The notes under the pieces were generated by a model. That model was given only the letters and a program-made list of their open reading frames with translations, searched no databases and was not told the origin of the DNA. The position numbers were made by a program, and so were the translations under genes. This document shows, piece by piece, positions 17,889 to 61,681 of a stretch of 64,000 nucleotides of DNA (its first letter is position 1; each line of letters opens with the position of its first letter). The DNA is from Geodermatophilus poikilotrophus. GTDB lineage: Bacteria; Actinomycetota; Actinomycetes; Mycobacteriales; Geodermatophilaceae. The stretch is from the NCBI RefSeq assembly GCF_900111455.1, contig NZ_FOIE01000008.1, positions 62,001 through 126,000 on the forward strand, read 5' to 3'.

Positions 17889-17943
17889 CGGCCCCGTCCA
17901 GAGGCTCGCCGCGAGCTCGCGAGCGGTGGGGAGGACGGGGTCC
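17889..17943 (+). repeat. Covarying stop-codon hairpin element, copy 1
   Basis: Begins one base after the short ALDH stop. Outer arms CCCCGTCC/GGACGGGG, inner arms CTCGCCGC/GCGGTGGG (two G-T pairs), loop GAGCTCGCGA. See finding on the element family. Confidence 0.75.
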
Positions 17944-17952
17944 GTCATCGGG

Positions 17953-17958
17953 CAGGAT
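17953..17958 (+). promoter_or_regulatory. -10-like box CAGGAT before the duplicated acidic protein
   Basis: CAGGAT is followed by six bases and the GTG at 17965. Confidence 0.4.
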
Positions 17959-17964
17959 GGGCGC

Positions 17965-19398
17965 GTGGCCCGGCCCAGCATCGTCCCCATCGCCCTCACC
18001 GTCGACGACCGCACGGGCTTCACCCTGTGGGCCCCGCCGTGGGAGGAGGACGGCGAGGAGTGGCAGGCGTTCCTCGGCACGTCCGAGGGCGACCGGGCCC
18101 GCGTCCACCTCTTCCCGACGCCCGCGGCGCTGGCCGCCTTCTGCCGCACCCGCACCGACCACGACCTCGCCGACCACCCGGTCTGGCCGGTCGTGGTCGG
18201 GCTGGGTGCGGCCGACCTGACGCCTGACGACGACCACCGCTACGACCTCGACGGCGTCTACGACACAGCTGCCGAGAACCCCGACCGGTGGGCCGTCGAG
18301 GAGCTGGCCGCGACCATCGACATCGTCACCCGGCTGGCCGAGTGCCTCGACACGGGCGACGACGAGGACGACGACGAGCTGACCGACCCCGACGACGACC
18401 CCGACGTCGACGACGACATCGAGCTGGAGCGCCGGTCGGGTGGGGACGTGACCCGCGGCGGGGAGTTCGGCGCGCTCGCCGAGCTGGTCTCCCGGCCGGA
18501 GGTCGGGTCGCTCGGGCTCGGCGTCGAGGCCTTCCTCGGCCGCTCCGGCGAGGACGCCTGGGTGGGTGTCGGCGGAGCCCTCGACGACCTGTGGGAGGAC
18601 GTCCTCGAGGAGCTGGGCGCGCACCTGGACTGGACCGGCGGAGGCACGGTCACCATCGAGGACTACCCCTCGGCGGCCGAGGACGACGACGAGGACGACG
18701 AGTTCGAGGACGACGACGACGCCGAGGACGCCGCCCCCGCGACGCGCCCGGCCGGCGGATCGACCGCGGCCTCGGCGGCAGCGGCCGGCGTCAGCACCAT
18801 CGCCCGTCCCGGCCGGATCGCCGCCCCGCCGGCAGAGGTCGCCGAGGCCGCCCGGTTCTGGGAGGCCGTCGGCATCCTGCCGGTGGAGGTGGTCGTGCCG
18901 GAGGGCTCCGGCGTCACGCTGCGCTGCTACGTCGACGACCGGGCCCGCTTCCTCGGCCGGGACGGCGAGGTGTTCCTGTTCGCCTCCCCCGCCGACCTCA
19001 CCCGCTTCTGCCGCGGGGACGAGACCCACGACCTCACCGAGATCGCCTCCTGGCCGGAGGTCGCCGACACCGACACCCGGCCGCTGCCGGCCGACCAGGA
19101 CCGCTACGACCTCACCGAGCTCACCGAGGTGCTCGCCGAGGTCGCCGGCGGCGCGGCCGGGCTGGTCGACCACCGCGTCCTCGCCCAGCAGGTCGAGGGC
19201 GTCCGCGACGTCGCCGAGTACGCCGGGCTCACCCGCGTCGACGAGCTGCTGCGCCCGGACGCCCCGCTCGGCCAGGCGGTGGCGCGCGGCGAGCGGCAGC
19301 CCGACGCCCCGCTGCGGGCCGAGGACGCCGCGGTGCTGCGCCCGGACTGGGACGAGGTCGTCACCGAGGTCAGCCGGGCGCTGGTCTTCCGCGACTGA
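17965..19398 (+). CDS. Acidic two-repeat protein of unknown function
   Basis: A 477-residue soluble protein with no recognised catalytic motif. It holds two copies of a ~50-residue unit. The first (about 47-100) has VHLFPTPAALAAFC, HDL, W and RYDL; the second (about 336-386) has VFLFASPADLTRFC, HDL, W and RYDL at nearly identical spacings. Between them lie two highly acidic stretches (about 130-155 and 238-255) rich in Asp and Glu. Homologues in related genomes are, as I recall, sometimes labelled primosomal protein, which nothing in this sequence supports. The GTG at 17965 follows a -10-like box by six bases. It sits between the deoC operon and a convergent DEAD-box helicase. Confidence 0.7.
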   Translation: MARPSIVPIALTVDDRTGFTLWAPPWEEDGEEWQAFLGTSEGDRARVHLFPTPAALAAFCRTRTDHDLADHPVWPVVVGLGAADLTPDDDHRYDLDGVYDTAAENPDRWAVEELAATIDIVTRLAECLDTGDDEDDDELTDPDDDPDVDDDIELERRSGGDVTRGGEFGALAELVSRPEVGSLGLGVEAFLGRSGEDAWVGVGGALDDLWEDVLEELGAHLDWTGGGTVTIEDYPSAAEDDDEDDEFEDDDDAEDAAPATRPAGGSTAASAAAAGVSTIARPGRIAAPPAEVAEAARFWEAVGILPVEVVVPEGSGVTLRCYVDDRARFLGRDGEVFLFASPADLTRFCRGDETHDLTEIASWPEVADTDTRPLPADQDRYDLTELTEVLAEVAGGAAGLVDHRVLAQQVEGVRDVAEYAGLTRVDELLRPDAPLGQAVARGERQPDAPLRAEDAAVLRPDWDEVVTEVSRALVFRD

Positions 19399-19525
19399 CG
19401 GAGGGCTCCCGCTCGCCGACCGCCCGCAGGCCCGCGGCGGGGCCCCGAGGGAGGCCGCCGTCCTCCGGTCACCCCACCCCTGGGTCGGTGGGATCGCAGG
19501 GGGCACGTCACACGCACCACGAACG

Positions 19526-19563
19526 GCAGCGGCCGGCCCCGGGGATCCGGGACCGGCCGCTGC
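19526..19563. terminator. Bidirectional hairpin between convergent genes
   Basis: GCAGCGGCCGG pairs perfectly with CCGGCCGCTGC (the match continues with one mismatch) around a short loop. It lies between the acidic protein (plus, ends 19398) and the helicase (minus, ends 19579). Confidence 0.6.
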
Positions 19564-19578
19564 TCCGTGGATCGGTGC

Positions 19579-21081
19579 TCAGTCGGCGGCGGGCCGCCGG
19601 CCCTGACCGCGGTACGAGCTGGGACGACGCTCGCCGTAGGGGCGGTCGCCGTTCCCGCGGGAACGCTCGCCGTACGGCCGCTCACCGAACGCCGGACGGT
19701 CGCCGTCCCGGCGCGGCCGCTCCCCGTGGGGACGGCGCGGCCGGTCACCGTCGCGGCGCGGGCGCTCGCCGTCCCGGCGGGGACGCCGGCCGCCCGGGCC
19801 GCCGGAGGGACGCCGGGACTCGCGCACCGGGCGCTCCACCGGCTCGACGTGCACGCCGCTGGCGACGAGCTCGGCGATCGGGGCGTCGCCCGGACGGACC
19901 CGGGAGACCACGGGCTCCACCTTGGCCTGGCGGAACCGGCGCTTGGCCTGGCCCACCTGGTCGGGCAGCAGCAGCGAGACCACGACACCGCCGGCGCCGG
20001 CGCGGGCGGTGCGGCCCGAGCGGTGCAGGTAGGTCTTGTGGTCCGCCGGCGGGTCGTAGTGCAGCACCAGCGAGACGTCGTCGACGTGGATGCCGCGGGC
20101 GGCGACGTCGGTGGCGACCAGCACCGGGCTGCGGGCGTCGGTGAACTCCTCCAACGCCCGGCGGCGGGCACCCTGCGGCAGTCCGCCGTGGATGGCCTCG
20201 GCCTTGATGCCCGCGGCCTGCAGGTTGCCGGCGAGCCGGTCGGCGCCGAGCTGGGTGCGCACGAAGATGAGCGTGCGGCCCGGCCGGGCGGCCAGCTGCT
20301 CGGTCACCGGCACCTTGTCGCGGAAGGCGAGGCTGTAGGCCAGGTGCTCGGCCGGCGGGGCGTCGTCCCCGGCGCGCTTGACCTCGTGCCGGGCCGGGTC
20401 CTTGAGGTAGCGGCGCACCAGCGTGTCCACCTCGCCGTCCAGCGTGGCCGAGAACAGCAGCCGCTGGGCGTCGGGGCGGGTCTGGTCGAGCAGCTCCTGC
20501 ACGACCGGCAGGAAGCCGAGGTCGGACATGAAGTCGGCCTCGTCGATGACGGTCACGGAGACCTCGTCGAGGGTGACCTCGCCCTGGCCGATGAGGTCCT
20601 GCAGCCGGCCGGGGGTGGCGATGACGGCGTCCACGCCGCGGCGCAGCTGCTGGATCTGCCGGTACATCGAGGCACCGCCGTAGACGGTGGTCAGCTGGAC
20701 GCCGATGGACTGCCCCAGCGGCGACAGGTTGTCGAACACCTGCTGGGCCAGCTCGCGCGTCGGCACGAGGACCAGCGCGCGCGGAGCACGCGGGCCCCGC
20801 CGGGCGGTCTCGCCCAGGCGGGCGAGCAGCGGCAGGCCGAAAGCCAGCGTCTTGCCCGAGCCGGTGGCGGCCTTGCCCAGCACGTCGCGCCCGGCGAGGG
20901 CGTCGGGCAGGGCGGAGGCCTGGATGGCGAAGGGGTGCCGGATGTCGCGCCGCTCGAGCGCGGTCACCAGCTGCTGGGGCAGGCCCAGCTGGGCGAAGGT
21001 CGGGCCGCTCGGCTCGGCGGGGACCTCGACCTCGGTGATCTCAGGGGTGGTCTGGACGTCGACAGTGTCGAACGTGGTCAT
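19579..21081 (-). CDS. DEAD-box ATP-dependent RNA helicase
   Basis: A 500-residue RNA helicase. Motifs are intact and in order: AATGSGKT (71-78), PTREL (107-111), TPGR (156-159), DEAD (180-183), SAT (211-213) and HRSGRTAR (353-360). After about residue 425 it becomes an Arg/Gly/Asp/Glu-rich tail with repeated RRDGERP and RRDGDRP units and GERPYGE variants, a typical low-complexity RNA-binding extension. It would act in ribosome assembly or mRNA turnover. The open frame extends 25 codons upstream, but the ATG at 21081 is where similarity begins. Long leader sequence (21082-21300) separates it from add; no structured element was recognised there. Confidence 0.9.
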   Translation of the reverse strand: MTTFDTVDVQTTPEITEVEVPAEPSGPTFAQLGLPQQLVTALERRDIRHPFAIQASALPDALAGRDVLGKAATGSGKTLAFGLPLLARLGETARRGPRAPRALVLVPTRELAQQVFDNLSPLGQSIGVQLTTVYGGASMYRQIQQLRRGVDAVIATPGRLQDLIGQGEVTLDEVSVTVIDEADFMSDLGFLPVVQELLDQTRPDAQRLLFSATLDGEVDTLVRRYLKDPARHEVKRAGDDAPPAEHLAYSLAFRDKVPVTEQLAARPGRTLIFVRTQLGADRLAGNLQAAGIKAEAIHGGLPQGARRRALEEFTDARSPVLVATDVAARGIHVDDVSLVLHYDPPADHKTYLHRSGRTARAGAGGVVVSLLLPDQVGQAKRRFRQAKVEPVVSRVRPGDAPIAELVASGVHVEPVERPVRESRRPSGGPGGRRPRRDGERPRRDGDRPRRPHGERPRRDGDRPAFGERPYGERSRGNGDRPYGERRPSSYRGQGRRPAAD

Positions 21082-22390: not shown

Positions 22391-22434
22391 CTCCCCATTC
22401 TCGTCAGCGGCGCGCGCCGGCTTGAGCCGGGGAC

Positions 22435-23253
22435 TCAGCCCTCGCGGTCCTGCCAGCGGAAGGTCACCGCGCAGAGCACGAGCCCGGCGACGCACCAGAG
22501 GCCCAGCACCAGCGCCACGGTGCCGAGCTCCCACGACCCGGCCGGCTCGCGGGCGGCCAGCGCGTCGGGGAGGAACACCGAGCGCAGCCCCTGGGCCAGC
22601 CACTTCACCGGGAAGACGGCGGCCACGTCCTGCAGCCAGCCGGGCACCTGGTCGAAGGGCATGAAGACGCCGGAGACGAACTCGATCACCAGCGCGATGG
22701 GGGTGACCGTCGCCGACGCCGACCGGCCGTTGCGGGCCAGCGTCGACACCACGATGCCCAGCAGGGTGCACGCGGCGGCGCCGAGCACCGACACCCAGGC
22801 GAAGGTCAGCCAGTCGGTGCCCGAGGGCAGGTCGATGCCGTAGACGAGGACGCCGACCAGCACCAGCAGCGCGATGGTCGCGACCGCCACCGCGAGCACC
22901 TGCACGACCTTGCCGGCGAAGTAGGCGCTGGCCGGCATCGGCGTCCCGCGGAGGCTCTTCAGCGTGCCGTCGGAGCGCTCGCCGGCGATGTGGATCGCCA
23001 TGTTCTGCAGACTGGCCCCGACGATGCCCGCGGTGATCACCCCGGCCATGAAGTACTGCGGGAAGTCGACCCCGGCGCCGAGGTCGTAGTCGAGCACCGC
23101 GCCCAGGCCCAGCAGCAGGATCACCGGGAAGACGAGGGTGAAGACCACCGACTCCCGCTGCCGGAAGAACTCCTTGAGCTCGACGCCGGCGCGGGTCAGG
23201 CAGACCCGGCCGAGCGGGGGCAGCGCAGCGCGCTCCGGGGCGGTGGTGGTCAC
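22435..23253 (-). CDS. ABC-2 type transporter permease
   Basis: A 272-residue membrane protein with six predicted helices, of the ABC-2 (DrrB/NodJ-like) class. An N-terminal cytoplasmic segment (KEFFRQRESVVFTLVFPVI) leads into the first helix, and the conserved EXFXRTL-type region appears as ERSDGTLKSLRGTPM (about 93-107). With the ATPase encoded just upstream it should form an exporter for drugs, lipids or other hydrophobic substrates; the substrate is unknown. Its GTG start at 23253 overlaps the stop of the ATPase gene by four bases. Confidence 0.85.
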   Translation of the reverse strand: MTTTAPERAALPPLGRVCLTRAGVELKEFFRQRESVVFTLVFPVILLLGLGAVLDYDLGAGVDFPQYFMAGVITAGIVGASLQNMAIHIAGERSDGTLKSLRGTPMPASAYFAGKVVQVLAVAVATIALLVLVGVLVYGIDLPSGTDWLTFAWVSVLGAAACTLLGIVVSTLARNGRSASATVTPIALVIEFVSGVFMPFDQVPGWLQDVAAVFPVKWLAQGLRSVFLPDALAAREPAGSWELGTVALVLGLWCVAGLVLCAVTFRWQDREG

Positions 23254-24224
23254 GACGACACCCCCTGGCTCCGCTCGGCTCCTCGCCGACCGACGGCCGC
23301 TGCGGTGCCCCCTCCCTCGGGGACCTGTCCGATCATCTTCAGGTAGACGTCCTCGAGCGTGGGCCGGGCGACGGTCAGGTCGGGCACCTCGCCGGGGAAG
23401 CGGGCGGCGAGCTCCCGCACGAACGCGGTCGGCGTCGCGGTCTCGGCGGAGCGCCGGACGCCGTCCTCGGTCCAGCTGACGACGGCGGGTGCGGTGCCCC
23501 GCCCACCCAGTGCGGCGGGGACGGCCACCTCGGCGAGCTGGCCGCGCGCGAGGACGCCGACCCGGTCGGCCAGCGCCTCGGCCTCGTCGAGGTAGTGCGT
23601 GGTGAGCAGCATCGTGGTGCCCAGGTCGCGCAGCGAGCGGATCAGCGCCCAGAACTGCCGCCGCGCCTCGGGGTCGAAGCCGGTGGTCGGCTCGTCGAGG
23701 AAGAGCAGCCGCGGCCGGCCGACGATGCCCAGCGCCACGTCCAGCCGCCGGCGCTGACCCCCGGACAGGGTGCGGCCGCGCGCCCCCGCCTCGGCGGTGA
23801 GCCCGACCAGCTCCATCACCTCGTCGGGGTCGCGCGGCTCGGCGTAGTAGGACGCCCGCGCCTTCAGCAGCTCGCGGACCGACAGCTGGCTGTCCCCCGC
23901 GCCGGACTGCAGCACGATGCCCAGCTGCGCCCTCCAGCGCCGTCCGCCCCGGGCCGGGTCCACGCCGAGGACGCGCACGTCGCCGCCGTCCCGCTTCCGG
24001 TAGCCCTCCAGCACCTCGACGGTGGTGGTCTTGCCGGCGCCGTTGGGGCCCAGCAGCGCGAAGATCTCGCCGCGCCGGATGTCGAGGTCCAGGCCGTCGA
24101 CGGCGGCGCGGTCGCCGTAGCGCTTCACCAGGCCGCGGACGGAGATGGCGGCGTCCGGGTCAGGCTCGCTCCCGGGTCCCGCCGCGAGCGTGCGGGTGGT
24201 GGGGAGGAGGGAGTCCTTCTGCAC
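23250..24224 (-). CDS. ABC transporter ATP-binding protein (DrrA-like)
   Basis: A 324-residue ATPase with Walker A GPNGAGKT (59-66), signature LSGGQ (153-157) and Walker B LFLDEP (174-179), followed by TTHYLDEAEALADR. A ~90-residue C-terminal extension ending near TLEDVYLKMIGQ is typical of the DrrA exporter class. It powers the ABC-2 permease with which it overlaps. The GTG at 24224 was chosen because it follows a -10-like CACTGT by six bases; an open frame extends further upstream without support. A 13-base palindrome covers that box and may be a repressor site. Confidence 0.85.
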   Translation of the reverse strand: MQKDSLLPTTRTLAAGPGSEPDPDAAISVRGLVKRYGDRAAVDGLDLDIRRGEIFALLGPNGAGKTTTVEVLEGYRKRDGGDVRVLGVDPARGGRRWRAQLGIVLQSGAGDSQLSVRELLKARASYYAEPRDPDEVMELVGLTAEAGARGRTLSGGQRRRLDVALGIVGRPRLLFLDEPTTGFDPEARRQFWALIRSLRDLGTTMLLTTHYLDEAEALADRVGVLARGQLAEVAVPAALGGRGTAPAVVSWTEDGVRRSAETATPTAFVRELAARFPGEVPDLTVARPTLEDVYLKMIGQVPEGGGTAAAVGRRGAERSQGVSS

Positions 24225-24226
24225 GA

Positions 24227-24239
24227 GGACACAGTGTCC
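24227..24239. promoter_or_regulatory. Perfect palindrome GGACACAGTGTCC over the ABC-exporter promoter
   Basis: Six-base arms with a one-base centre, placed two bases before the proposed GTG and overlapping the candidate -10 hexamer. Position and symmetry suit a TetR- or MarR-type operator; no regulator gene is adjacent. Confidence 0.45.
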
Positions 24240-24344
24240 CCGGCCGGTCGGGAGGAGCGCGTCCACCCCTCCCCCGGCTGCGACGGACGGGATGCCCCAC
24301 CTGCCGACGACCACGGCCAGGACGGGCGGGCCGCCGGGCCGGGC

Positions 24345-33878: not shown

Positions 33879-33949
33879 CGTGCAGTGCGCACCGGCCGCG
33901 TCCCGGCCCCTGGCGACGTGCTGGAACGGCCCCGCTGCAGGGTCCCGCC

Positions 33950-34038
33950 CGGCCCCGTCCAGAGGCTCACCGCGAGCTTGCGAGTGGTGAGGAGGACGGG
34001 GTCCTCTTACGAACGGTGGGGAGGACGGGGGTCCTCTC
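33950..34038 (+). repeat. Covarying stop-codon hairpin element, copy 2 plus a partial copy
   Basis: Full copy 33950-34006 (outer CCCCGTCC/GGACGGGG, loop GAGCTTGCGA) followed by a right-arm fragment 34011-34038 that ends three bases from the 2H-phosphoesterase stop (34041). Confidence 0.75.
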
Positions 34039-34040: not shown

Positions 34041-35689
<1,649 letters not shown>

Positions 35690-36871: not shown

Positions 36872-37873
36872 ATGCGCGTTCTCGTCGCCGGTGGAGCCGG
36901 CTACATCGGCAGCGTAGTCACCGCCGCTCTCCTCGAGGGGGGTCACGAGGTGACCGTCCTCGACGACCTGTCGACCGGGCACGCCGACGCCGTCCCCTCG
37001 GGGGCCCGGTTCGTGCAGGCGTCGCTGCACGACTCCGCGCCGGTCCTCGCCGACGTCCGCCCGGAGGCGGTCCTGCACTTCGCGGCCAAGAGCCTGGTCG
37101 GCGAGTCGCAGGTCGAGCCGGGGATCTACTGGGACACCAACGTGTGCGGAACGCTCGCGCTGCTCGAGGCCATGCGCGCGGCCGACTGCCGGCGGATCGT
37201 CTTCTCCTCCACCGCGGCCACCTACGGCGAGCCCGAGCAGGTGCCGATCCGCGAGGACGCCCCGACCCGGCCGACCAACACCTACGGCGCCACCAAGCTC
37301 GCCGTCGACGCGATGCTGACCTCGTACGCGGCCGCGTACGACTTCGCGGCAGTGAGCCTGCGCTACTTCAACGTGGCCGGCGCCGCCTACGGCCTCGGCG
37401 AGCGGCACACCACCGAGACCCACCTCATCCCGATCGCGCTGCAGGTGGTGGCCGGTCAGCGGGAGCACCTGACGATCTACGGCGAGGACTACCCGACCGA
37501 GGACGGCACCTGCATCCGGGACTACATCCACGTCGAGGACCTCAGCGACGCCCACCTGCTCGCGCTGACCGCGCCGTCCCCGGGCGAGCACCGCATCTAC
37601 AACCTGGGCAACGGCACCGGCTTCTCCGTGCAGCAGGTGGTCGACGCCGTCCGCGAGGTCACCGGGCACCCGGTGCCGGTCGAGGTCGGACAGCGGCGGG
37701 CCGGGGACCCCGCGCAGCTGGTGGCCTCCAGCGACCGGATCCGCAGCGACCTGGGCTGGGCGCCGAAGCACACCGACCTGACCGGCATCGTCCGCGACGC
37801 CTGGGAGTTGAAGGACCCTTCTGCTCCCCACCACTCGCACGCTCGTGGCGGGCCCCTGCAGAAGGGCCGTTAG
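36872..37873 (+). CDS. galE: UDP-glucose 4-epimerase
   Basis: A 333-residue extended SDR that interconverts UDP-glucose and UDP-galactose. Rossmann GGAGYIGS (7-14), SST (112-114) and the catalytic Tyr138/Lys142 in YGATK are intact. The last ~20 residues, beginning [15 protein letters not shown], are translated from a hairpin element. An out-of-frame TGA at 37809-37811, placed exactly where other copies of the element have the upstream gene's stop, suggests a one-base shift near the 3' end let the gene read into the element. Function should be unaffected because the catalytic domain is complete. Confidence 0.92.
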
Positions 37874-37904
37874 CTCGCGGCGGGCCCCTGCAGAGGGGCC
37901 GTCA
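37808..37904 (-). repeat. Covarying stop-codon hairpin element, copy 3 plus partial copy
   Basis: Full copy 37808-37873 (minus orientation; outer CCCTTCTGC/GCAGAAGGG, inner CCCGCCAC/GTGGTGGG) encodes the GalE tail. A second left-arm fragment (37874-37904) reaches the stop of the CNNM gene. Confidence 0.75.
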
Positions 37905-39433: not shown

Positions 39434-40330
39434 GTGCACCACATGCCGGCGGGTCCGCCGCTCTCTTCCCGCATCGCCGCGTCGCTCTCCCGGTGGGCTC
39501 GTCTGCTCCGCCTGCCGCGCCTCGTGCCCCTGCTGCTCGTGGTCGGTGCGGTCGCCGTCGTGACGGTCGGGGCGCCGATGGTGTCCGGGGCGGTGACCAG
39601 CTTCACCGACCCGGTGGCGCTCGAGTCGACCGCGACCTCGGCCGGCGCTCCCCCCGCGACGACCGGCACCGGCGGGTCCTCGTCGTCCCGTGGGTCGGCG
39701 GACGCCCCGCTCGTGCAGATGGGCGTCGACGGCGACCCGGCGCCGCAGACCCCCGGGACAGCACCGGCGCCCCCGTCGGCCGGGACGTCGACCCCCGTGG
39801 TCCCGCCCGTCGCGGCGGCGGAGGCCCCGGAGCCGACGTCGCGGTCCACCGGGGTCCCCGCTGCGGAGGAGCCCGCCGGCGCGGTCGAGCTCCCCGCCGT
39901 CGAGGCCGAGACCGGGCGGGCGCCCGTGGGGCAGGCGGCCGCCGCCGCAGCCGACCCCACCGCGGAGGCCGCGGTGCTGGCGCTGGTCAACGAGGCCCGC
40001 GCCGGCGCCGGCTGCGGCGCCCTCACCGCCGACCCGGCCCTGGCCGCGGTGGCGCGGGCGCACAGCGCGGACATGCGCGACCGCGACTACTTCTCGCACA
40101 CCAGCCCCGAGGGGCTGTCCCCGTTCGACCGCGCCGAGCGGGCCGGCGTGGACTACTCGCGGGCGGAGAACATCGCCTTCGGTCAGGCCGACGCCGCCGC
40201 GGTGATGGAGGCCTGGCTGGAGAGCCCGGGCCACCGCGAGAACATCCTCGACTGCGAGCTCACGAGGCTCGGCGTGGGCGTCGCCGAGGGCCCAGGCGGC
40301 CCCTGGTGGACCCAGCTCTTCGGCGCCTGA
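39434..40330 (+). CDS. Secreted/anchored CAP (SCP-like) domain protein
   Basis: A 298-residue protein with an N-terminal membrane segment (LVPLLLVVGAVAVVTVGAP, about 31-49), a ~120-residue Ala/Pro/Thr/Ser-rich disordered linker, and a C-terminal CAP domain (about 170-298). The domain has EARAGAGCGAL, HSADMRDRDYFSHTSPEG, AENIAFG and WLESPGHRENIL, the standard bacterial SCP-like pattern. Such proteins act outside the cell, with roles in adhesion or lipid binding that are mostly unproven. Start GTG 39434 (an ATG three codons later is possible). A CRP-like site lies about 85 bases upstream. Confidence 0.85.
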   Translation: MHHMPAGPPLSSRIAASLSRWARLLRLPRLVPLLLVVGAVAVVTVGAPMVSGAVTSFTDPVALESTATSAGAPPATTGTGGSSSSRGSADAPLVQMGVDGDPAPQTPGTAPAPPSAGTSTPVVPPVAAAEAPEPTSRSTGVPAAEEPAGAVELPAVEAETGRAPVGQAAAAAADPTAEAAVLALVNEARAGAGCGALTADPALAAVARAHSADMRDRDYFSHTSPEGLSPFDRAERAGVDYSRAENIAFGQADAAAVMEAWLESPGHRENILDCELTRLGVGVAEGPGGPWWTQLFGA

Positions 40331-40394
40331 GAGAGGACCCTCCTGCCCCCACCACTCGCAGGCTCGCGGCGGGGACCCTGCAGGAGGGCCGGGC
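40331..40394 (-). repeat. Covarying stop-codon hairpin element, copy 4
   Basis: Starts at the first base after the CAP gene stop. Outer CCCTCCTGC/GCAGGAGGG, loop GAGCCTGCGA read on the minus strand. Confidence 0.78.
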
Positions 40395-42924: not shown

Positions 42925-42967
42925 TCGCTGGGCGGGGTCCCGCGCCCGGTCGGGGTGCGGCCCCCGT

Positions 42968-43017
42968 GCACGGTCCCGTCACGGGCCTGCGAGCGGCGGG
43001 GGACGAGGGGTCCTCGT
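42968..43017 (+). repeat. Covarying stop-codon hairpin element, copy 5 (shortened)
   Basis: Abuts the DUF3017 gene stop (43018). Retains GGCCTGCGAGCGGCGGGGG but the outer arms are shorter and less regular than in other copies. Confidence 0.6.
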
Positions 43018-43317
43018 TCAGCCGCCCGGGATCGCCAGCGTGAAGGCGGTCAGCAGGACGCCGACGCCGACCAGCAGGACGACGTCCACCGGCCGGCTGC
43101 GGACCGCGAGGAAGCCGACCCGGCGCAGCGGGAGCAGCAGCCGCAGCACTCCCCCACCGACCAGGGCCAGCCCGACGACGACCAGCCCGCGCCGCCAGTG
43201 CTCGAAGGTGACCATGAGCAGCCCGGTGCCCACCGTGAGCAGCACGACCAGCAGCGGCAGCTGCCGCAGCAGGCCGGCCAGGAACGGCCGGCGGGTGTAG
43301 AGCGGGGGGCGGGTCAC
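43018..43317 (-). CDS. DUF3017-type small membrane protein
   Basis: A 99-residue protein with three hydrophobic helices (about 18-36, 45-62, 78-95) separated by basic loops (EHWRRG; PLRRVGFLAVRSRP). This size, topology and position directly after folD match actinobacterial DUF3017 proteins, which have no known function. The GTG at 43317 lies two bases after the folD stop, so it is co-transcribed. It is only visible as the tail of a longer open frame that reads back through folD; I chose the start from the spacing and the typical length. Confidence 0.65.
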   Translation of the reverse strand: MTRPPLYTRRPFLAGLLRQLPLLVVLLTVGTGLLMVTFEHWRRGLVVVGLALVGGGVLRLLLPLRRVGFLAVRSRPVDVVLLVGVGVLLTAFTLAIPGG

Positions 43318-45550: not shown

Positions 45551-45612
45551 GCGGCCCCCTCGCAGGGGCCCGCCGCGAGCCTGCGAGCGGTGGGGGGCGA
45601 GGGGGTCCTCCA
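45551..45612 (+). repeat. Covarying stop-codon hairpin element, copy 6
   Basis: Directly abuts the purH stop (45613-45615). Outer CCCCCTCGC/GCGAGGGGG, inner CCCGCCGC/GCGGTGGG, loop GAGCCTGCGA. Confidence 0.78.
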
Positions 45613-47163
45613 TCAGTGGGCGAAGTGCCGGGTGCCGGTCAGGTAGACCGGGATGCCGACGGCCGCCGCGGCCGCGACGACCTCCTCGTCGCGCACCGAC
45701 CCGCCCGGCTGCACGACCGCCCGCACCCCGGCGTCGAGCAGCACCTGCAGGCCGTCGGCGAAGGGGAAGAACGCGTCGGAGGCGGCGACCGACCCGGCGG
45801 CCCGCTCCCCCGCCCGGGCGACGGCCAGCCGGGCGGAGTCGACCCGGTTCACCTGGCCCATGCCGACGCCGACGGTGGCCTTGTCGTGGGCCAGCAGGAT
45901 GGCGTTGCTCTTCACCGCGCGGACCGAGCGCCAGGCGAACACCAGGTCGTCGAGGCCGGCGGCGTCCAGCGGCTCGCCGGTCGCGAGGGTCCAGGTGGTG
46001 GGGTCGTCGCCGGGGGCGTCGATGCGGTCGGCGCTCTGCACCAGCAGCCCGCCGCTGATCGGGCGCAGCTCAGTCGCTCCCTGCGCCGCCTCGCCCAGCC
46101 GGAGCAGCCGGATGTTCTTCTTCGCGGTGAGCACCTGCAGCGCGTCCTCGGTGAAGGACGGCGCGACGACGACCTCGGTGAACACCTCGGCCACCTGCTC
46201 GGCCGTGGTGAGGTCGACCTCGCGGTTGGCCGCGATCACGCCGCCGAAGGCCGAGACCGGGTCGCACGCGTGCGCCTTGCGGTGTGCCGCGGCGACGTCG
46301 GTGCCGACGGCGATGCCGCAGGGGTTGGCGTGCTTGATGATCGCCACGCAGGGGTCGGCGTGGTCGTGCGCGGCCCGCCAGGCGGCGTCGGTGTCGACGT
46401 AGTTGTTGTAGGACATCTGCTTGCCGTGCAGCTGCTCGGCGTGCGCGAGCCCCGGCCGGCCGCTGCGGTAGAGCGCCGCCTGCTGGTGCGGGTTCTCGCC
46501 GTAGCGCAGCACGTCGGCACGCTCCCAGCTCGCCGCCACCCACGTGGGGAACACCGACTCCTCGTCGGGTGCGACGACGCTGCCCAGCCACGAGGCGACG
46601 GCGATGTCGTAGCTCGCCGTGTGCCGGAACGCCGCGACGGCCAGCCGCTGCCGCTCGGCGAGCGTGAAGCCCCCGGCGGAGACCGCGGCCAGGACGTCGC
46701 CGTAGCGGGCCGGGTCGACCACCACGGCCACCGACGGGTGGTTCTTCGCCGACGCGCGGACCATCGCGGGGCCGCCGATGTCGATCTGCTCCACGCACTC
46801 GTCCGGGCTCGCGCCGGAGGCCACCGTCTCGGTGAAGGGGTAGAGGTTGACGACGACGAGGTCGAACGGCGCGATGCCGAGGTCCTCGAGCTGCTGCACG
46901 TGCTCGGGCTTCCGGCGGTCGGCCAGGATGCCGGCGTGCACGGCCGGGTGCAGCGTCTTCACCCGCCCGTCGAGGCACTCGGGGAAACCGGTGACCTGCT
47001 CGACCGGGGTGACCGGCACCCCGGCCCCGGCGATCCGGCGGGCGGTCGCGCCGGTGCTGACCAGCTCGACGCCGGCATCGGCCAGGCCGCGGGCCAGCTC
47101 CTCGATGCCGGTCTTGTCGTAGACGCCGAGCAGGGCGCGGCGGATCGGGGTGCGGTCGCTCAT
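45613..47163 (-). CDS. purH: Bifunctional AICAR formyltransferase/IMP cyclohydrolase
   Basis: A 516-residue enzyme for the last two steps of IMP synthesis. The N-terminal IMP cyclohydrolase (MGS-like) domain runs to about residue 150 with [17 protein letters not shown] and STGATARRI; the AICAR transformylase domain follows with [28 protein letters not shown] and the catalytic Lys-His pair in IKHANPCG. The ATG at 47163 overlaps the purN stop (ATGA), giving a purN-purH operon. Formyl donor comes from FolD. Confidence 0.95.
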
Positions 47164-47777
47164 CGGGGGTCCTCCGGGGTCTGGGTGCAGAGGCGGGTGA
47201 CCACGCGCGCCACCGTCTCCACCAGGAGCTCGCGCTCCACGTCCTTGATCCGTTCGTGCAGGCGCGCCTCGTCGTCCCCGGGGAGGACGGGTACCTCGCG
47301 CTGGGCGATGACCGGTCCGGTGTCGACGCCGGCGTCCACCCAGTGCACCGTGCTGCCGGTGACCTCGGCCCCGGCGGCGAGCGCGTCGCGGACGGCGTGC
47401 GCGCCCGGGAAGGCCGGCAGCAGCGCGGGGTGGGTGTTGAGCAGCCGGCCACCGTGAGCGGCGAGGACGGCGGGGCCGACGATCTTCATGAAGCCGGCGG
47501 AGACCACCAGATCGGGTCGGTGCACGGCGATGGCGGCGGCCAGCGCGGAGTCCCACGCGGCCCGGTCGGGGTGGTCGCGCAGCGCGCACGTGAAGGTGGC
47601 GATGCCGCGGCGCCGCGCGTGCTCGAGCCCTGGGGCGTCCCGGTCGCTGCCGACGGCGACCACGGCGGCCGGGTAGCCCGGGTCCTCTGCGGCCGTCAGG
47701 AGTGCCTCGCACAGCGTCCCGGTCCCCGACAGCAGGACGACGACCCGCGCCCGCGCGGACTGCTCGAGAGCGGGCAC
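47160..47777 (-). CDS. purN: Phosphoribosylglycinamide formyltransferase
   Basis: A 205-residue formyl-THF-dependent GAR transformylase (purine step 3). VLLSGTGT (14-21), the catalytic Asn114/His116 in NTHPALLP, and Asp152 in [13 protein letters not shown] are intact. The first strand has SGTGT where many enzymes have SGxGSN. The GTG at 47777 follows TAGGGT by seven bases, with a hairpin element just upstream of that box. First gene of the purN-purH unit. Confidence 0.93.
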
Positions 47778-47790: not shown

Positions 47791-47850
47791 TAAGGACCCC
47801 GTCCTCCTCATCCCTCGCACGCTCGGGACGAGCCTCTAGACGGGGCCGGC
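47791..47850 (-). repeat. Covarying stop-codon hairpin element, copy 7
   Basis: Between the DUF6350 stop (47875) and the purN promoter. Inner helix CTCGTCCC/GGGATGAG carries a T-A pair where other copies have C-G, a compensatory change. Confidence 0.78.
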
Positions 47851-50463: not shown

Positions 50464-50512
50464 TGGGACCCTGCCGTGGGCCTGCGAGTGGCGGGGCGGA
50501 GGAGTCCTCCGA
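50464..50512 (+). repeat. Covarying stop-codon hairpin element, copy 8 (degenerate arms)
   Basis: Abuts the sucD stop. Loop region GGCCTGCGAGTGGCGGGG kept; outer arms only partly complementary. Confidence 0.6.
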
Positions 50513-51391
50513 TCAGGCGCCGACGATCTCCCGCATGAGGCGGGCGGTCTCCGACGGGGTCTTGCCGACGCGGACGCCGGCGGCCTCGAGGGCCTCCTGC
50601 TTCGCCTGCGCGGTACCGGCCGAGCCCGAGACGATGGCGCCGGCGTGGCCCATCGTCTTGCCCTCGGGCGCGGTGAAGCCGGCGACGTAGCCGACGACCG
50701 GCTTGGTGACGTTGGCCCTGATGAAGTCCGCGGCCCGCTCCTCGGCGTCGCCACCGATCTCACCGATCATGACGATGGCCTCGGTCTCCGGGTCGTCCTG
50801 GAAGGCCTGCAGGCAGTCGATGTGCGTGGTGCCGATGACCGGGTCGCCACCGATGCCGACGCAGGTGGAGAAGCCGATGTCCCGGAGCTCGTACATCATC
50901 TGGTAGGTCAGCGTGCCGGACTTGCTGACCAGCCCGATCCTGCCCTGCTTGGTGATGTTGGCCGGGATGATGCCGGCGTTCGAGCGCCCGGGGCTGATCA
51001 GGCCCGGGCAGTTCGGGCCGATGATCCGGGTCGAACCCCCCTGGGCGTGGGCCCAGAAGTAGGTCGAGTCGTGCACCGGGATGCCCTCGGTGATGACGAC
51101 GGCCAGCCCGATCTGGGCGTCGACGGCCTCGATGACGGCGTTCTTCGCGCCGGCCGGCGGCACGAAGATGACGCTGACGTCGGCGCCGGTCTCCTTCATC
51201 GCCTCGGCGACGTTGCCGAACACCGGGACGCCGGCGCCGTCGAAGTCGACGCTCTGGCCGGCCTTCTTCGGGTTCACGCCACCGACGATCGCCGTCCCCG
51301 AGGCCAGCATGCGCTGGGTGTGCTTGCGCCCCTCGGAGCCGGTCATGCCCTGGACGATGACCTTGCTGTTCTCGTTGAGGAAGATCGACAT
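50513..51391 (-). CDS. sucD: Succinyl-CoA synthetase alpha subunit
   Basis: A 292-residue subunit that carries the phosphohistidine. CoA-binding GMTGSEG (15-21; most relatives have GxTGxxG), PNCPG and the active-site His249 in [10 protein letters not shown] are present. ATG at 51391; the longest frame adds 19 codons that come from a hairpin element and is rejected. Partner sucC is directly upstream on the same strand, with that element filling the 90-base gap, which is unusual for an obligate pair and may tune the ratio of the two. Confidence 0.95.
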
Positions 51392-51419: not shown

Positions 51420-51482
51420 GGAGCGGCCCCCTTCCAGGGGCCCGCCACGAGCCTGCGAGTGGTGGGGAGGAAGGGGATCCTT
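51420..51482 (+). repeat. Covarying stop-codon hairpin element, copy 9, inside the sucC-sucD operon
   Basis: Abuts the sucC stop (51483). Outer CCCCCTTCC/GGAAGGGG, inner CCCGCCAC/GTGGTGGG, loop GAGCCTGCGA. Confidence 0.78.
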
Positions 51483-52643
51483 CTAGGCGGCGAGCTCGGC
51501 GGCCCGGCGGGCGGCGCCGTCCATCGTGTCCACCAGGGTCACCAGCGGGTGGTTGGCCTCGGCGAGGATCCGCCGGCCCTCCTCGACGTTGTTGCCGTCG
51601 AGCCGGACGACCAGCGGCTTGGTCGCCTCGTCGCCGAGCATCTGCAGCGCGTGCACGATGCCGTTGGCGACCGCGTCGCAGGCGGTGATCCCGCCGAAGA
51701 CGTTGACGAAGACGCTCTTCACAGCGGGGTCGGACAGGATGATGTGCAGGCCGTTGGCCATGACCTCGGCCGAGGCACCACCACCGATGTCGAGGAAGTT
51801 GGCCGGCTTCACGCCACCGAACTCCTCACCGGCGTAGGCGACGACGTCCAGGGTGCTCATCACGAGCCCTGCACCGTTGCCGATGATGCCGACCTGACCC
51901 TCGAGCTTGACGTAGTTGAGGTCCTTCTCCTTGGCCGCGGCCTCCAGCGGGTCGGCGGCGGCACTGTCCTCCAGGGCCTCGTGCTCCTGGTGCCGGAAGC
52001 GGGCGTTCTCGTCGAGGGTGACCTTCGCGTCCAGCGCGAGGACGGTGCCGTCGGGGGCCTTGGCCAGCGGGTTGACCTCGACCAGGGTGGCGTCCTCCTG
52101 GGCGAAGACCTCCCACAGCTGGACGGCGATGGCGATCACCTGGTCGCGCACCGCGGCGGGGAAGCCGGCAGCGTCGACGATCTCGGTGGCCTTGGCGGTG
52201 TCGACGCCGGTGGTGGCGTCCACGGGGATGCGGGCCAGCGCCTCGGGGCGCTCGACGGCGAGCTGCTCGATCTCCATGCCGCCCTCGACGCTGGCCATGG
52301 CCAGGAAGGTGCGGTTGGCGCGGTCGAGCAGGTAGGAGAAGTAGTACTCCTCGGCGATGTCACTGGCCTGGGCGACCATCACGCGGTGGGTGATGTGGCC
52401 CTTGATGTCCAGGCCGAGGATGTCCTGGGCACGCGCCCGGGCGTCCTCGGCGTCGTCGGCGAGCTTGACGCCGCCGGCCTTGCCGCGGCCACCGGTCTTC
52501 ACCTGCGCCTTGACGACGACGGTGGTGCCGATCTCGCGGGCGATCGCCTCCGCCTGCTCGGGGGTCTCGGCGACGCCGCCGGGGAGCACGGGGACACCGT
52601 GCGAGGCCAACAGGTCACGGGCCTGGTACTCGAAGAGATCCAC
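51483..52643 (-). CDS. sucC: Succinyl-CoA synthetase beta subunit (ADP-forming)
   Basis: A 386-residue ATP-grasp subunit, forming succinate and ATP from succinyl-CoA with Suc[20 protein letters not shown] at the N-terminus, [17 protein letters not shown] (nucleotide-binding), LVEVNPL with the metal-binding residues and the [12 protein letters not shown] phosphohistidine-site loop are seen. GTG start at 52643; TACGGT lies eight bases upstream (52652-52657), so a leaderless transcript is possible. A product of methylmalonyl-CoA mutase is the substrate of this complex. Confidence 0.95.
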
Positions 52644-54406: not shown

Positions 54407-55303
54407 ATGCACGCACTCAGCGACCCGGAGCCCGATCCAGCGTCGCACACGGGTGCCGTGGCGCCCGGAGCGCCACGGCACCCGCTGCGCTCGCTGATGA
54501 CCCGGGCCGCGCTGACCGGCGGGATCACCGAACTGGCCCTCGTCGGGGCGCACGTGCTGATGTACCCCCTCGGCACCCGAGCCGACCGGCTGCGGCCGGA
54601 CCCGCGGTGTCGCCCGGGCGAGCAGCCGCCCGCGGTCCGCGCCCTCTTCGCCGCCGACCCGCTGGCCGCCCGCGTCCCCGTCGTCCTGGTGCACGGCCTG
54701 ATCGACAATCACTCGGTCTTCGCGGTGATGCGGCGCAGCCTGCGCCGTCGCGGCTTCACCTCCGTCTGCTCGTGGAACTACAGCCCGCTGCTGGCCGACG
54801 TCGGGCGCGGCGCCGCCGACCTCGGCCGGCACCTGCAGCGCATCTGCGAGCAGACCGGGTACGAGCGGGTGCACGTCGTGGGGCACAGCCTCGGCGGCCT
54901 GCTGGCCCGCTACCACGTGCAGCGCCAGGGCGGTGACCAGCACGTCGAGTCGCTGGTGACGCTCGGGACGCCGCACCAGGGGTCGGTGCTGGCGCACCTG
55001 CTGCCCACCCCGCTGGTCCGCCAGCTGCGCCCGGGCTCCGTGGTGCTGCGGGAGCTCGCCGAGCCCGCGCCGGGGGTGCGCACCTCCGTGATCGCCGTCT
55101 ACAGCGACCTCGACCAGGTCGTCGTCCCGACCAGCGCCGGTCGCTGCGACCACCCGGACCTGCAGGCCCGCAACGTGCTGGTCCGCGGGGTCGGCCACAT
55201 GTCGTTGCCCTTCCACCGCACCGTGCTCGACGAGGTCGCCACGACCCTCGCCGGCCGCCGGCAGCCGCACGCCGACGTCCCCGCCCCGGCCGCCGTCGCC
55301 TGA
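54407..55303 (+). CDS. Alpha/beta-hydrolase, lipase-like
   Basis: A 298-residue serine hydrolase. VVLVHGLIDN (92-101) supplies the oxyanion HG, GHSLGG (159-164) holds the nucleophile Ser161, and a YSDLDQVV segment and GVGHMSLP supply the likely Asp and His. TLGTPHQGS after the nucleophile is typical of triacylglycerol lipases (LipA/EstA-like). There is a hydrophobic stretch near 38-53 but no clear signal peptide. The ATG at 54407 has GGGGAGG five bases upstream. Two consecutive hairpins follow its stop. Confidence 0.82.
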   Translation: MHALSDPEPDPASHTGAVAPGAPRHPLRSLMTRAALTGGITELALVGAHVLMYPLGTRADRLRPDPRCRPGEQPPAVRALFAADPLAARVPVVLVHGLIDNHSVFAVMRRSLRRRGFTSVCSWNYSPLLADVGRGAADLGRHLQRICEQTGYERVHVVGHSLGGLLARYHVQRQGGDQHVESLVTLGTPHQGSVLAHLLPTPLVRQLRPGSVVLRELAEPAPGVRTSVIAVYSDLDQVVVPTSAGRCDHPDLQARNVLVRGVGHMSLPFHRTVLDEVATTLAGRRQPHADVPAPAAVA

Positions 55304-55363
55304 GAGGGCCCCGTCCTCCTCACCCCTCGCAGGCTCGGGGCGAGCCGCTGGACGGGGCCGGCC
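55304..55363 (-). repeat. Covarying stop-codon hairpin element, copy 10
   Basis: Starts right after the lipase stop. Inner helix CTCGCCCC/GGGGTGAG: CC/GG replaces the GC or AC/GT of other copies, again compensatory. Confidence 0.78.
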
Positions 55364-56462: not shown

Positions 56463-56465
56463 TCC

Positions 56466-59029: not shown

Positions 59030-59035
59030 CAGACT
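59030..59035 (+). promoter_or_regulatory. -10-like box CAGACT for the chorismate mutase leader transcript
   Basis: CAGACT, seven bases, then the GTG of the leader peptide at 59043, so transcript and leader peptide would start together. Confidence 0.5.
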
Positions 59036-59042
59036 CCGCGAC

Positions 59043-59108: not shown

Positions 59109-59124
59109 GCACACGCCGCAACAG

Positions 59125-59158
59125 ACGCCCCGGGCCCGAGGAGCCCGGGGCGTTTCTC
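59125..59158 (+). terminator. Attenuator-type intrinsic terminator before chorismate mutase
   Basis: Perfect 11-bp stem (59125-59135 with 59143-59153), seven-base loop, then TTTCTCGTTCTC, the only T-rich tail of this kind near a hairpin in the window. It lies upstream of the gene it would control, not downstream. Confidence 0.75.
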
Positions 59159-59201
59159 GTTCTCGGGGTCCGACGGCCACCGCCCCGCCCCGGAGGACAC
59201 G

Positions 59202-59489: not shown

Positions 59490-59492
59490 AGA

Positions 59493-59558
59493 AGGAGGAG
59501 GGCCCCGTCCCCCTGACCGCTCGCAGGCTCGCAGCGAGCCTCTGGACGGGGCCCGTGG
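59493..59558 (-). repeat. Covarying stop-codon hairpin element, copy 11
   Basis: Between convergent chorismate mutase and SnoaL-like genes. Outer CCCCGTCC/GGACGGGG, loop GAGCCTGCGA on the minus strand. Confidence 0.75.
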
Positions 59559-59586
59559 AGGCCTGCCGGAGGGCCGGTGCCGTCGG

Positions 59587-60024
59587 TCACTGGCGGCGCT
59601 GGTCGGGCGGCGGGAAGTCGGCGTGGCGGTGGACCAGCCACCAGTCGTCCTCGATCCGCCGGTAGACGTGCGTCACCCGGATGGTCATGGGCCGTGCCTC
59701 GCCGCCGTCGATGCGCACCGTGCCCTGCTCGAGGCCGACCGTGTAGGCGAGGTCGCCGCTGACGTCGACCACCTCGTAGCGCGGCACGAGCTCACCGTCG
59801 CCGAACCGGCTGCCGACCCACTCGAAGGTCCGGGTGACGGCGTGGTGCCCCTTCTCGATCGGACCCCAGGCGCCGAACAACGTCACGTCGGCGGAGTCGG
59901 CCCAGCAGGCCGCGTACGGGCCGGGGTTCCCGGCGGCCATCGCCGCCAGGCCGTCGGCAACGCGCTCCAGCGCCCGAGCCAGTGCAGCGTCCACGACCGC
60001 CTCCTCCCCGGTGAACCGTCGCAC
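59587..60024 (-). CDS. SnoaL-like/NTF2-fold protein
   Basis: A 145-residue cone-fold protein of the SnoaL_3/DUF4440 type. PGPYAACWADSADVTLFGAWGPIEKG (loosely, residues 33-60) and a C-terminal THVYRRIEDDWWLVHRHAD are the family's typical first helix-strand and last strands. Such proteins are isomerases, hydrolases or ligand-binding domains; no catalytic assignment is possible. GTG at 60024. It diverges from the CMD-sigma factor pair, whose sigma factor also ends in a SnoaL domain, though the two are not obviously duplicates. Confidence 0.75.
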   Translation of the reverse strand: MRRFTGEEAVVDAALARALERVADGLAAMAAGNPGPYAACWADSADVTLFGAWGPIEKGHHAVTRTFEWVGSRFGDGELVPRYEVVDVSGDLAYTVGLEQGTVRIDGGEARPMTIRVTHVYRRIEDDWWLVHRHADFPPPDQRRQ

Positions 60025-60085
60025 GGTCCACCGGGCGGCAGCCAGGGTCCTCGCGTCCCGCGACCGGGGGGAACCCGCGTCGGCG

Positions 60086-60112
60086 CGTCACGTCCCGCGC
60101 CGCCGTCCCGTC
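60086..60112 (+). promoter_or_regulatory. Candidate ECF41-type promoter (CGTCACG-N16-CGTC)
   Basis: CGTCACG at 60086-60092 and CGTC at 60109-60112 with 16 bases between resemble the ECF41 consensus I remember (TGTCACA-N16-CGTC). It is 35 bases before the CMD gene, the usual ECF41 target. Confidence 0.4.
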
Positions 60113-60146
60113 TCCATGAGCACCACCCGCGGAGAGGACGACGACC

Positions 60147-60701
60147 ATGGCCCGCATCCCGCTCGACCCGCCACGCACCCGCCTGTACCGCCTCGCCGAG
60201 TGGTACGCGCGCCGGACCTACGGCGTGGTGCCCGACCCGCTCGCGGCGATGGCCCACCACCGGCGGGTGCTGCTGACCGACGTCCGGTTCGAGACGTCGC
60301 TGGCCCGGTGGGACCGCCTCGACCGCACGCTGAAGTCCCTCGCCGTCATGGCCTCGGCCGTGACGATCGGCTGCTCCTGGTGCGTCGACTTCGGTCACTG
60401 GATCAGCACCCAGGAGGGCGTGGACCCCGCGAAGCTCCGCGCGGTGCCGCGCTGGCGGGAGAGCGACGTCTTCACCGACCTGGAGCGGCGGGTGATGGCC
60501 TACGCGGAGGCGGTGACGGCCACCCCGCCCGCCGTGACCGACGAGATGGTGTCCGACCTGCGACGCGACCTGGACGACGCCCAGCTGGTCGAGCTGACCA
60601 TGATGGTGGCCGTGGAGAACGTCCGGTCGCGGTTCAACAGCGCGCTCGGGCTGGCCAGCCAGGGCTTCCGGGACCGCTGCGAGCTCCCGGCCACGGCGTG
60701 A
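60147..60701 (+). CDS. Carboxymuconolactone decarboxylase-family protein (COE partner of ECF41)
   Basis: A 184-residue AhpD/CMD-fold protein. The redox motif CSWCVDFGH (76-84: Cys76, Cys79, His84) is intact, as in AhpD-like peroxidase partners. The gene overlaps, by four bases, an ECF41 sigma factor; ECF41 genes are typically linked to a carboxymuconolactone decarboxylase, oxidoreductase or epimerase (COE), which they transcribe. So it is most likely the regulon target. ATG at 60147 with GGAGAGG upstream. Confidence 0.82.
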   Translation: MARIPLDPPRTRLYRLAEWYARRTYGVVPDPLAAMAHHRRVLLTDVRFETSLARWDRLDRTLKSLAVMASAVTIGCSWCVDFGHWISTQEGVDPAKLRAVPRWRESDVFTDLERRVMAYAEAVTATPPAVTDEMVSDLRRDLDDAQLVELTMMVAVENVRSRFNSALGLASQGFRDRCELPATA

Positions 60702-61612
60702 CCGCCCCGGACGCGGGCACCGGGCCCCTGGCGGCCTTCGACCGGCACCGACGGCTGCTGTTCACGGTCGCCTACCAGATGCTGGGCAGCGTCACCGACG
60801 CCGAGGACGTCGTGCAGGACGCGTGGCTCCGGTGGTCGGCGACCGACCGGGCCGACGTCGCCGACCCGCGGGCCTACCTCGTCCGGATCACGTCCCGGCT
60901 GGCCCTCGACCGGTTGGACTCGGCCCGCAGCCGCCGCGAGAGCTACGTCGGGCCGTGGCTGCCGGAGCCCCTGCTCACCGGCTCCGCCCCCGTCGCGGGC
61001 GGAGCTCCCCCGCCCGCCCCGGACGACGCAGCGGTGCTCGGGGACCAGGTCTCGCTCGCCCTGCTGGTGGTCCTCGAGACGCTGTCCCCCGCCGAGCGCG
61101 CCGTCTTCGTCCTCCGGGAGGTGTTCGGCCTGCCGGCGGCGGAGGTGGCCGCGATCCTGGGCCGCAGCGAGGCCGCGGTCCGGCAGACGGCGCACCGCGC
61201 CCGGGAGCACGTGCAGTCACGGCAGCCGCGCTTCGACGCCGACCGGTCGGCCCAGCGGGTCGTCACCGAGCGGTTCCTCGCCGCTTGCGCCGGCGGCGAC
61301 GTCGAGGCGCTGCTGGCCGCGCTGGCTCCGGACGTCGTCCTCGTGACCGACGGCGGGGGCAGGGCGAAGGCGGCGCTGCGGCCCATCGTGGGCGTGGACA
61401 AGGTGGCGCGCTTCCTGCTGGCGACCGCTGCCGAGGGTCTGTCCATCCCGGACCTGCACGTCGAGATCGCCGACGTCAACGGCGCTCCCGGCGTCGTCGC
61501 GTGGGTCCGTGGCGCACCCTTCCTGACGATGTCGCTCGTCCTGGTCGACGGGCTCGTCGAGCAGGTGCTGGTCGTGCGCAACCCCGAGAAGCTGGCCGGT
61601 CTGCAGCGGTGA
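60698..61612 (+). CDS. ECF41-family RNA polymerase sigma factor with SnoaL-like C-terminal domain
   Basis: A 304-residue extracytoplasmic-function sigma factor. Sigma-2 region: FTVAYQMLGSVTDAEDVVQDAWLRW (about 22-46); linker with WLPEPL; sigma-4 region: LSPAERAVFVLREVFGLPAAEVAAILGRS with AVRQTAHRAR; then a ~120-residue SnoaL domain containing DGGGRAKA and NPEKL, close to the DGGGK and NPDKL signatures of ECF41. In this group the C-terminal domain acts as a fused anti-sigma/activator in place of a separate anti-sigma factor, and none is encoded here. GTG at 60698 overlaps the CMD stop. Confidence 0.87.
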   Translation: MTAPDAGTGPLAAFDRHRRLLFTVAYQMLGSVTDAEDVVQDAWLRWSATDRADVADPRAYLVRITSRLALDRLDSARSRRESYVGPWLPEPLLTGSAPVAGGAPPPAPDDAAVLGDQVSLALLVVLETLSPAERAVFVLREVFGLPAAEVAAILGRSEAAVRQTAHRAREHVQSRQPRFDADRSAQRVVTERFLAACAGGDVEALLAALAPDVVLVTDGGGRAKAALRPIVGVDKVARFLLATAAEGLSIPDLHVEIADVNGAPGVVAWVRGAPFLTMSLVLVDGLVEQVLVVRNPEKLAGLQR

Positions 61613-61619
61613 GGGCTGA

Positions 61620-61681
61620 GTGGCCCTCCTGCAGGGTCCCGCCGCGAGCCTGCGAGTGGCGGGGGGCAGGAGGGTCCTCTC
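61620..61681 (+). repeat. Covarying stop-codon hairpin element, copy 12
   Basis: Follows the sigma-factor stop (61612) by seven bases. Outer CCCTCCTGC/GCAGGAGGG, inner CCCGCCGC/GTGGCGGG, loop GAGCCTGCGA. Confidence 0.78.

Follow-up and report, generated by a model that had tools for sequence, protein, structure and literature searches.

Hairpin elements in the window

A stretch of 64,000 nucleotides from Geodermatophilus poikilotrophus (contig NZ_FOIE01000008.1, positions 62,001 to 126,000; G+C content 74.2%), referred to below as the window, was analyzed for a family of short hairpin elements that recur around the ends of its genes. An initial annotation, made from the letters of the window, had listed twelve copies and two partial ones. 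A covariance model, R1, was built from eight window copies and detected 12 sites at E < 1e-6, with E-values down to 1e-16; the eight training copies match by construction, and the matches outside the training set lie at 24163, 45554, 40336 and 42960. Eleven of the twelve listed sites were matched by R1 (10 strongly, 42960 weakly), and the family is real. The remaining listed site, 50464, proved to be a half copy only (17 bits, E 0.12), and a full copy missing from the list was found at 24163. The loop string alone was uninformative, with 13 matches at no more than one mismatch against 12.7 expected from shuffles; the evidence therefore rests on the whole architecture. No Rfam family matched, either over the whole window at the gathering score or over 33900-62000 with E-values as high as 1 allowed, in line with the earlier statement that no named family was known.

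Gene calls throughout are from a heuristic of this analysis, in which stops are more reliable than starts. The first copy (17890..17943, + strand) lies in sense orientation 2 nt past the stop of a + gene ending at 17887, at a site that is empty in the sister species G024. The previously unlisted copy (24163..24216, +) extends into the region called as the start of an ABC-transporter-like gene (23250-24266, − strand), and the G024 counterpart is without the element. A full copy at 33951..34004 (+) is nested inside the loop of an older copy, the 5' half (33928..33950, +) and 3' half (34011..34034, +) of which enclose it (limits of both by eye), with an antisense stop at 34041. Another (37814..37867, −) forms an in-frame extension within the 3' end of the open reading frame (ORF) 36872-37873, beside the remnant of a second copy (37874..37900, −; limits by eye). 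The partial copies originally placed at 34011 and 37874 are thus best read as leftovers of older copies that enclose or adjoin newer ones.

Antisense copies lie at 40336..40389 (−), 5 nt past a + stop at 40330 and without an element at the G024 counterpart; at 42960..43013 (+), a degenerate copy of 39.8 bits with a poor outer helix, 4 nt from the stop at 43018; at 45554..45607 (+), behind purH (stop at 45613); at 51426..51479 (+), between sucC (51483-52643) and a sucD-like gene (50513-51391), where several congeners are empty; and at 55306..55359 (−), 2 nt past a + stop at 55303 and empty in both G024 and a further sister species, G013. The half copy (50470..50496, +) lies close to the sucD-like gene's stop codon. 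Further full copies were found at 47794..47847 (−), upstream of a purN-like gene (47160-47777), at 59500..59553 (−), between convergent genes, and at 61623..61676 (+), between tandem + genes, with the G024 site empty.

Copy number and distribution

The initial annotation had proposed a covariance scan beyond the window, and copies turned out to be abundant in the genome itself and in its relatives. For the counts over whole genomes the best 150 candidates were scored per genome; the comparison of the genus, other genera of the family and other families of the order scored the best 94, and the class-level one the best 19, both with stricter filters. At least 154 R1 matches were obtained from the own genome, and 54 copies at E < 1e-3 in a 400-kb sample of it (352 called genes), which extrapolates to a total of approximately 650. 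The 40-kb segment C13:100001-140000 (L046, L047) holds 14 of the 26 copies in the 200-kb sample of C13.

Matches were present in all 26 genomes of the genus searched and in 8 of 11 from other genera of the family (best 94 candidates each). Across the family 28 of 38 genomes carried them, spanning 9 of 12 genera in a patchy manner; one genome (G066) had none, and its congeners G035 and G073 had at least 146 and at least 150. No match was found in 24 genomes from other families of the same order (best 94 candidates each, stricter filters), and among 296 genomes across the class (best 19 candidates each, strict filters) only the own genome and G358 matched. The exact 54-bp consensus occurred in 25 stretches of genome contigs, all of Geodermatophilus or Blastococcus. 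No strong match was found outside a single actinomycete family, to which these two genera belong. G358 belongs to another family of the class, and its better match (44.7 bits) shares the apex and the layout of the inner helix but has a shorter outer helix; a second reached 30 bits in 388 kb, so that copies there are few (L131:8757-8801 and L132:16871-16926 are the two matches). These look-alikes suggest a wider and older family.

The possibility that the elements are chance palindromes of a G+C-rich genome agrees with the frequency of the loop string, which is as common as in shuffles, but is refuted here by the R1 E-values, including those of the four sites outside the training set, and by the contrast between at least 154 matches in the own genome and none in the 24 genomes of other families.

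Phages, plasmids and viral contigs gave no match in a search with short queries, which makes this a weak negative. No substitute repeat was seen in 20-60 kb of each element-free or element-poor genome, a result that is likewise weak since G035, an element carrier, also gave nothing clear. No description of the element was found in the open-licence literature, and no such repeat appears in the accessible portions of PMC2267715 or of the G. obscurus genome paper (PMC3035280).

Structure, covariation and strand

The element is ∼54-57 bp long and two-tiered, with 8-9 bp in the outer helix and 8 bp in the inner helix, one position of which favours a G·T pair. A 5/2-nt internal loop separates the helices, and the inner one is capped by the apex GAGCNYGCGA, in which 8 of 10 positions are nearly invariant. 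The apex probably consists of tandem sheared G·A pairs on two G-C pairs, closed by a turn of 2 nt. In the alignment of eight window copies, the two helices comprise 16 pairs, 99.2% of cells are paired and 7 of the 16 pairs have changes on both sides. A larger set of 116 regular copies was drawn from 159 fitted among 172 examined in the own genome and congeners, retaining those with at least 11 of 16 Watson-Crick pairs, which inflates the percentage paired. Double changes in this set exceeded every one of 500 shuffles at 11 of the 16 pairs, although the shuffles leave relatedness among copies in place. The two-helix stem-loop with covarying arms described initially was thereby borne out.

The pairs were fitted on Watson-Crick matches alone, treating G·U and A·C alike. 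On the strand reading GAGCNYGCGA, 169 G·T pairs were counted versus 27 A·C pairs (68 versus 26 after dropping the favoured position), and RNA folding favoured this strand in 158 of 172 copies. Selection therefore acted on the hairpin of the GAGCNYGCGA strand, as single-stranded DNA or RNA. This strand usually differs from the mRNA strand of the adjoining gene. As the initial annotation had stated, no T-run follows the hairpin in the printed copies, examined by eye on the element strand. By eye, changes in the 5' internal loop (GAGG, GGGG or GGGT; e.g. 17901-17905) go along with changes in the inner arm (CTC, CCC), which might reflect an additional local pairing of this loop.

Placement at gene ends

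Forty-nine of 53 sampled copies were intergenic, comprising 32 between tandem, 15 between convergent and 2 between divergent genes; divergent gaps made up 49 of the 195 gaps of at least 60 bp in the sample, versus these 2 of 49 copies. The intergenic placement claimed for the family therefore holds for most copies, but not for the copy at 37814, where the final residues of an epimerase-like ORF (36872-37873) are encoded in frame by the element (37814-37867). The G024 relative of this ORF is shorter at this end and stops after AWETAQK, with TAG directly before its own element.

Spacing was assessed on 145 copies scoring >33 bits from 18 stretches; 3 of these copies lay at edges. Among the other 142, the element end lies no more than 10 nt from an antisense stop in 86 and farther away in 22; 4 run more than 10 nt into a gene call, and 30 have their next gene on the element strand. 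Both the proximity of most copies to stop codons (within ten bases) and their mostly antisense orientation to the adjoining gene, noted in the window, thus extend to the wider sample. The distance to TGA was 4 nt in 47 of 87 cases and 5 nt in 10; of 22 copies at a TAG, 9 lay 2 nt away and some of the rest at 5 or 8 nt. A spacing of exactly 4 was seen in 44 of 103 placements compared to 2.2 expected from random placement within the same gaps (maximum of 5000 placements, 8). Furthermore, C precedes TGA at 81 of 93 stops closely followed by the element end motif versus 513 of 861 remaining TGA stops, and this excess points to a sequence target, CTGA, more than to a requirement of translation termination. 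For at least two loci, C8:149365 and sucC, the filled site has TAG as its stop, whereas relatives without the element have TGA. One copy of different placement (C8:198270; L040:18270-18323) lies 5 nt ahead of the start of an apparent tRNA gene (identified by eye) in the same direction, and copies occupy the matching places in G024 and G013, i.e. in three species.

Two functional explanations bear on this placement. A class of transcription terminators just behind stops, with a loop read by a protein, had been among the roles first proposed, and the strength of the hairpins, their location and the excess of convergent over divergent gaps (15 and 2 of 49 intergenic copies) agree with it. However, copies reside within groES-groEL, rpsN-rpsH and sucC-sucD-like gene pairs, and weaker ones (37-44 bits) within nusG-rplK, rplA-rplJ and rpoA-rplQ, where a strong terminator would cut the gene pairs unless the downstream genes are transcribed from their own promoters, as they could be. 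The sucC-sucD gap is empty in some congeners and the rpoA-rplQ gap in G013, most copies have their better-folding strand antisense to the gene they adjoin, and printed copies lack a T-run. Operon-internal copies, empty alleles and strand together disfavour this role, and we consider it very improbable.

The second explanation, a selected mRNA 3' stabilizer or processing signal of whatever origin, would account for the tight stop spacing and for occupancy that is common to species despite changed arms. It is at odds with the patchy loss in sister species, the C before TGA that points to a sequence target, the different spacings for TGA (4) and TAG (2), and a selected strand that mostly differs from the mRNA strand of the gene alongside. 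As the primary explanation it appears improbable; stabilization could be a secondary role.

Occupied sites, empty sites and nesting

The five copies L001-L005 are identical over all 54 bp and are followed at the 3' end by TT, beyond which their flanks are unrelated. Occupancy was compared with G024, in which most blocks are ∼90-97% identical to the own DNA, and with G013 (mostly ∼83-95%). Of 27 mapped gaps in G024, 18 were occupied and 9 were not; of 25 in G013, 12 were occupied and 13 were not. Empty orthologous sites, which the initial annotation had named as something to look for, were thus found in both sister species. Over 20 congeners, the sucC-sucD and purH gaps showed filled and empty alleles, with arms differing among the filled ones. 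At some empty sites (window 40336 and 55306) the stop codon is unchanged but the bases after it are unrelated, and sites common to species often bear quite different arms while the flanks stay.

Copies were also found inside other copies. In the same orientation, 10 of 167 copies lie between the 5' half (left) and the 3' half (right) of another, including the window copy at 33951; 1.4 were expected and the maximum of 1000 shuffles was 5, for motifs chosen after examples had been seen. Tandem 5'-half units with differing arms and the extension GGTGACNTGCTGGAAC were noted at C13:135556-135709 (L047) and in L061 near 17261. A TGGAAC-like string lies just upstream of 28 of 145 copies.

These observations could also be produced by turnover without transposition, in which old dispersed hairpins are overwritten by gene conversion or template switching at replication forks, with arms swapped in place and spread to new sites rare or over. 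Single sites with both arms changed and flanks kept, the tandem 5'-half units, copies within the loops of copies, and the failure of the searches described below (Y1, Y2, reverse transcriptase, integron integrase) to yield a mover are all compatible with such a process. Nevertheless, insertion must have happened at some point to produce identical 54-bp cores in unrelated surroundings and sites that are filled in a single species only, and the sharp stop-codon spacing needs either an insertion rule or selection. We regard this explanation as unlikely, though less so than either functional one.

Search for a mover and proposed mechanism

The family probably represents non-autonomous mobile palindromes of ∼54-57 bp, similar to repetitive extragenic palindromes (REPs) and belonging to one actinomycete family. 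Among the three roles initially proposed, a REP-like mobile element is the one supported, by identical copies with unrelated flanks, filled and empty sites, and nesting.

Several results weigh against mobility. The Y1 transposase (PF01797) was absent at E ≤ 1 from the own genome and at E ≤ 0.01 from 38 family genomes, with controls matched in 10 and 6 of 14. Y2 was absent from element carriers, its one positive among the 38 genomes (G076) being element-free; this negative is weaker, as controls matched in 0 of 14. Reverse transcriptase was not found in the own genome and was present in 21 of the 38 genomes with no fit, by eye, to element counts. The integron integrase model TIGR02249 exceeded its cut-off in 0 of 38 genomes. 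Mover searches covered these four classes among transposase and related families. Nesting defined through 9-nt complementary flanks gave a null result (9 versus 8.6 expected), nesting by geometry was weak (29 versus 17.5 expected, highest shuffle 25), and nesting in opposite orientation was not significant (5 versus 1.4 expected, highest shuffle 6). The target-site duplication that the initial annotation had suggested checking for was not seen in the printed empty-site pairs, the flanks of which are rearranged; junctions are blurred because insertion seems to replace neighbouring bases. The ends of the element are inverted repeats, and it may or may not be a miniature inverted-repeat transposable element, in which terminal inverted repeats are flanked by a target duplication. 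Lastly, shared occupancy of many sites could reflect function.

An integron attC site was considered as an identity for the element and rejected, given that no integron integrase scored over the cut-off; sub-cut-off TIGR02249 matches in 15 of the 38 genomes were read as ordinary tyrosine recombinases.

If the elements are mobile, new copies would settle at gene 3' ends in a preferred orientation, with the element 3' end typically 4 nt from an antisense TGA in CTGA context, and would also enter the loops of older copies. Once inserted, a new copy may displace the old one at its site as the older halves are lost, and as a consequence both arms would change together. Movement would presumably be driven by an enzyme, with the single-stranded hairpin as the form recognized. 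More tentatively, the family may be a hairpin transposon with a novel mechanism (not Y1, Y2 or reverse transcriptase) that reads a single-stranded hairpin capped by G·A pairs, inserts one way beside CTGA stops and into its own older loops, and rewrites hundreds of gene ends; we hold this more specific version to be possible but somewhat doubtful.

Comparison with known repeats

REPs are the textbook example of short repeats whose movement is attributed to Y1 transposases. Those of the GTAG superfamily, associated with REP-associated tyrosine transposases (RAYTs), are described in the accessible sections of PMC3733652 and PMC2817692 as high-copy and mostly intergenic, lying between tandem or convergent ORFs and often <20 bp from 3' ends; their palindromes are kept while the arms change, and in the former paper they are reported to supply TAG stops. 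GTAG REPs also often form head-to-head or tail-to-tail pairs. The hairpin element is likewise high-copy, intergenic and situated behind genes, preserves its palindromes with changed arms, and in some copies seems to supply a TAG stop. A Coxiella REP printed in the accessible part of PMC2817692 has the apex GAGCTTGCGA, the same as one variant of the hairpin element. In contrast, the hairpin element is a two-tiered structure of 54 bp rather than the single palindrome of 20-40 bp typical of GTAG REPs, its family lacks a detected Y1 in 38 genomes, and it inserts into its own loops. The GTAG tag is missing: 15 of 145 copies have its complement, CTAC, in the 10 nt that follow the 3' end, and GTAG itself was found at neither end.

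REPs of the CGTC superfamily are described in the accessible portion of PMC3733652 as high-copy palindromes behind genes without a dedicated transposase, with loops of 4-5 bases and CCA tails; Actinobacteria are not named in that portion in connection with the superfamily, and the word is absent from the paper's text. The hairpin element resembles them as a high-copy palindrome behind genes without a known dedicated transposase, but its apex spans 10 positions, CCA tails do not fit, and the CGTC tag is missing (CGTC beyond the 3' end in 8 of 145 copies and at the 5' end in 1; GACG at the 5' end in 12 and at the 3' end in 1). The absence of either tag from most copies, the different size and the lack of Y1 mean that, although the hairpin element works like a REP, it is filed under neither superfamily.

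A REP-like lifestyle, with the extrapolated ∼650 copies and fast turnover, is thus met in a family without a Y1 model match, and the spread of transposase-less REPs becomes a directly testable question. With both hairpin arms swapped at fixed gene ends, part of the covariation reflects replacement rather than paired point mutations, which calls for caution in covariation-based RNA discovery.

In its general features, the hairpin element may also be likened to the mycobacterial interspersed repetitive units (MIRUs), short intergenic units tied to stop codons, and to some insertion sequences that target the loops of repeated palindromes, namely those of REPs and bacterial interspersed mosaic elements (BIMEs).

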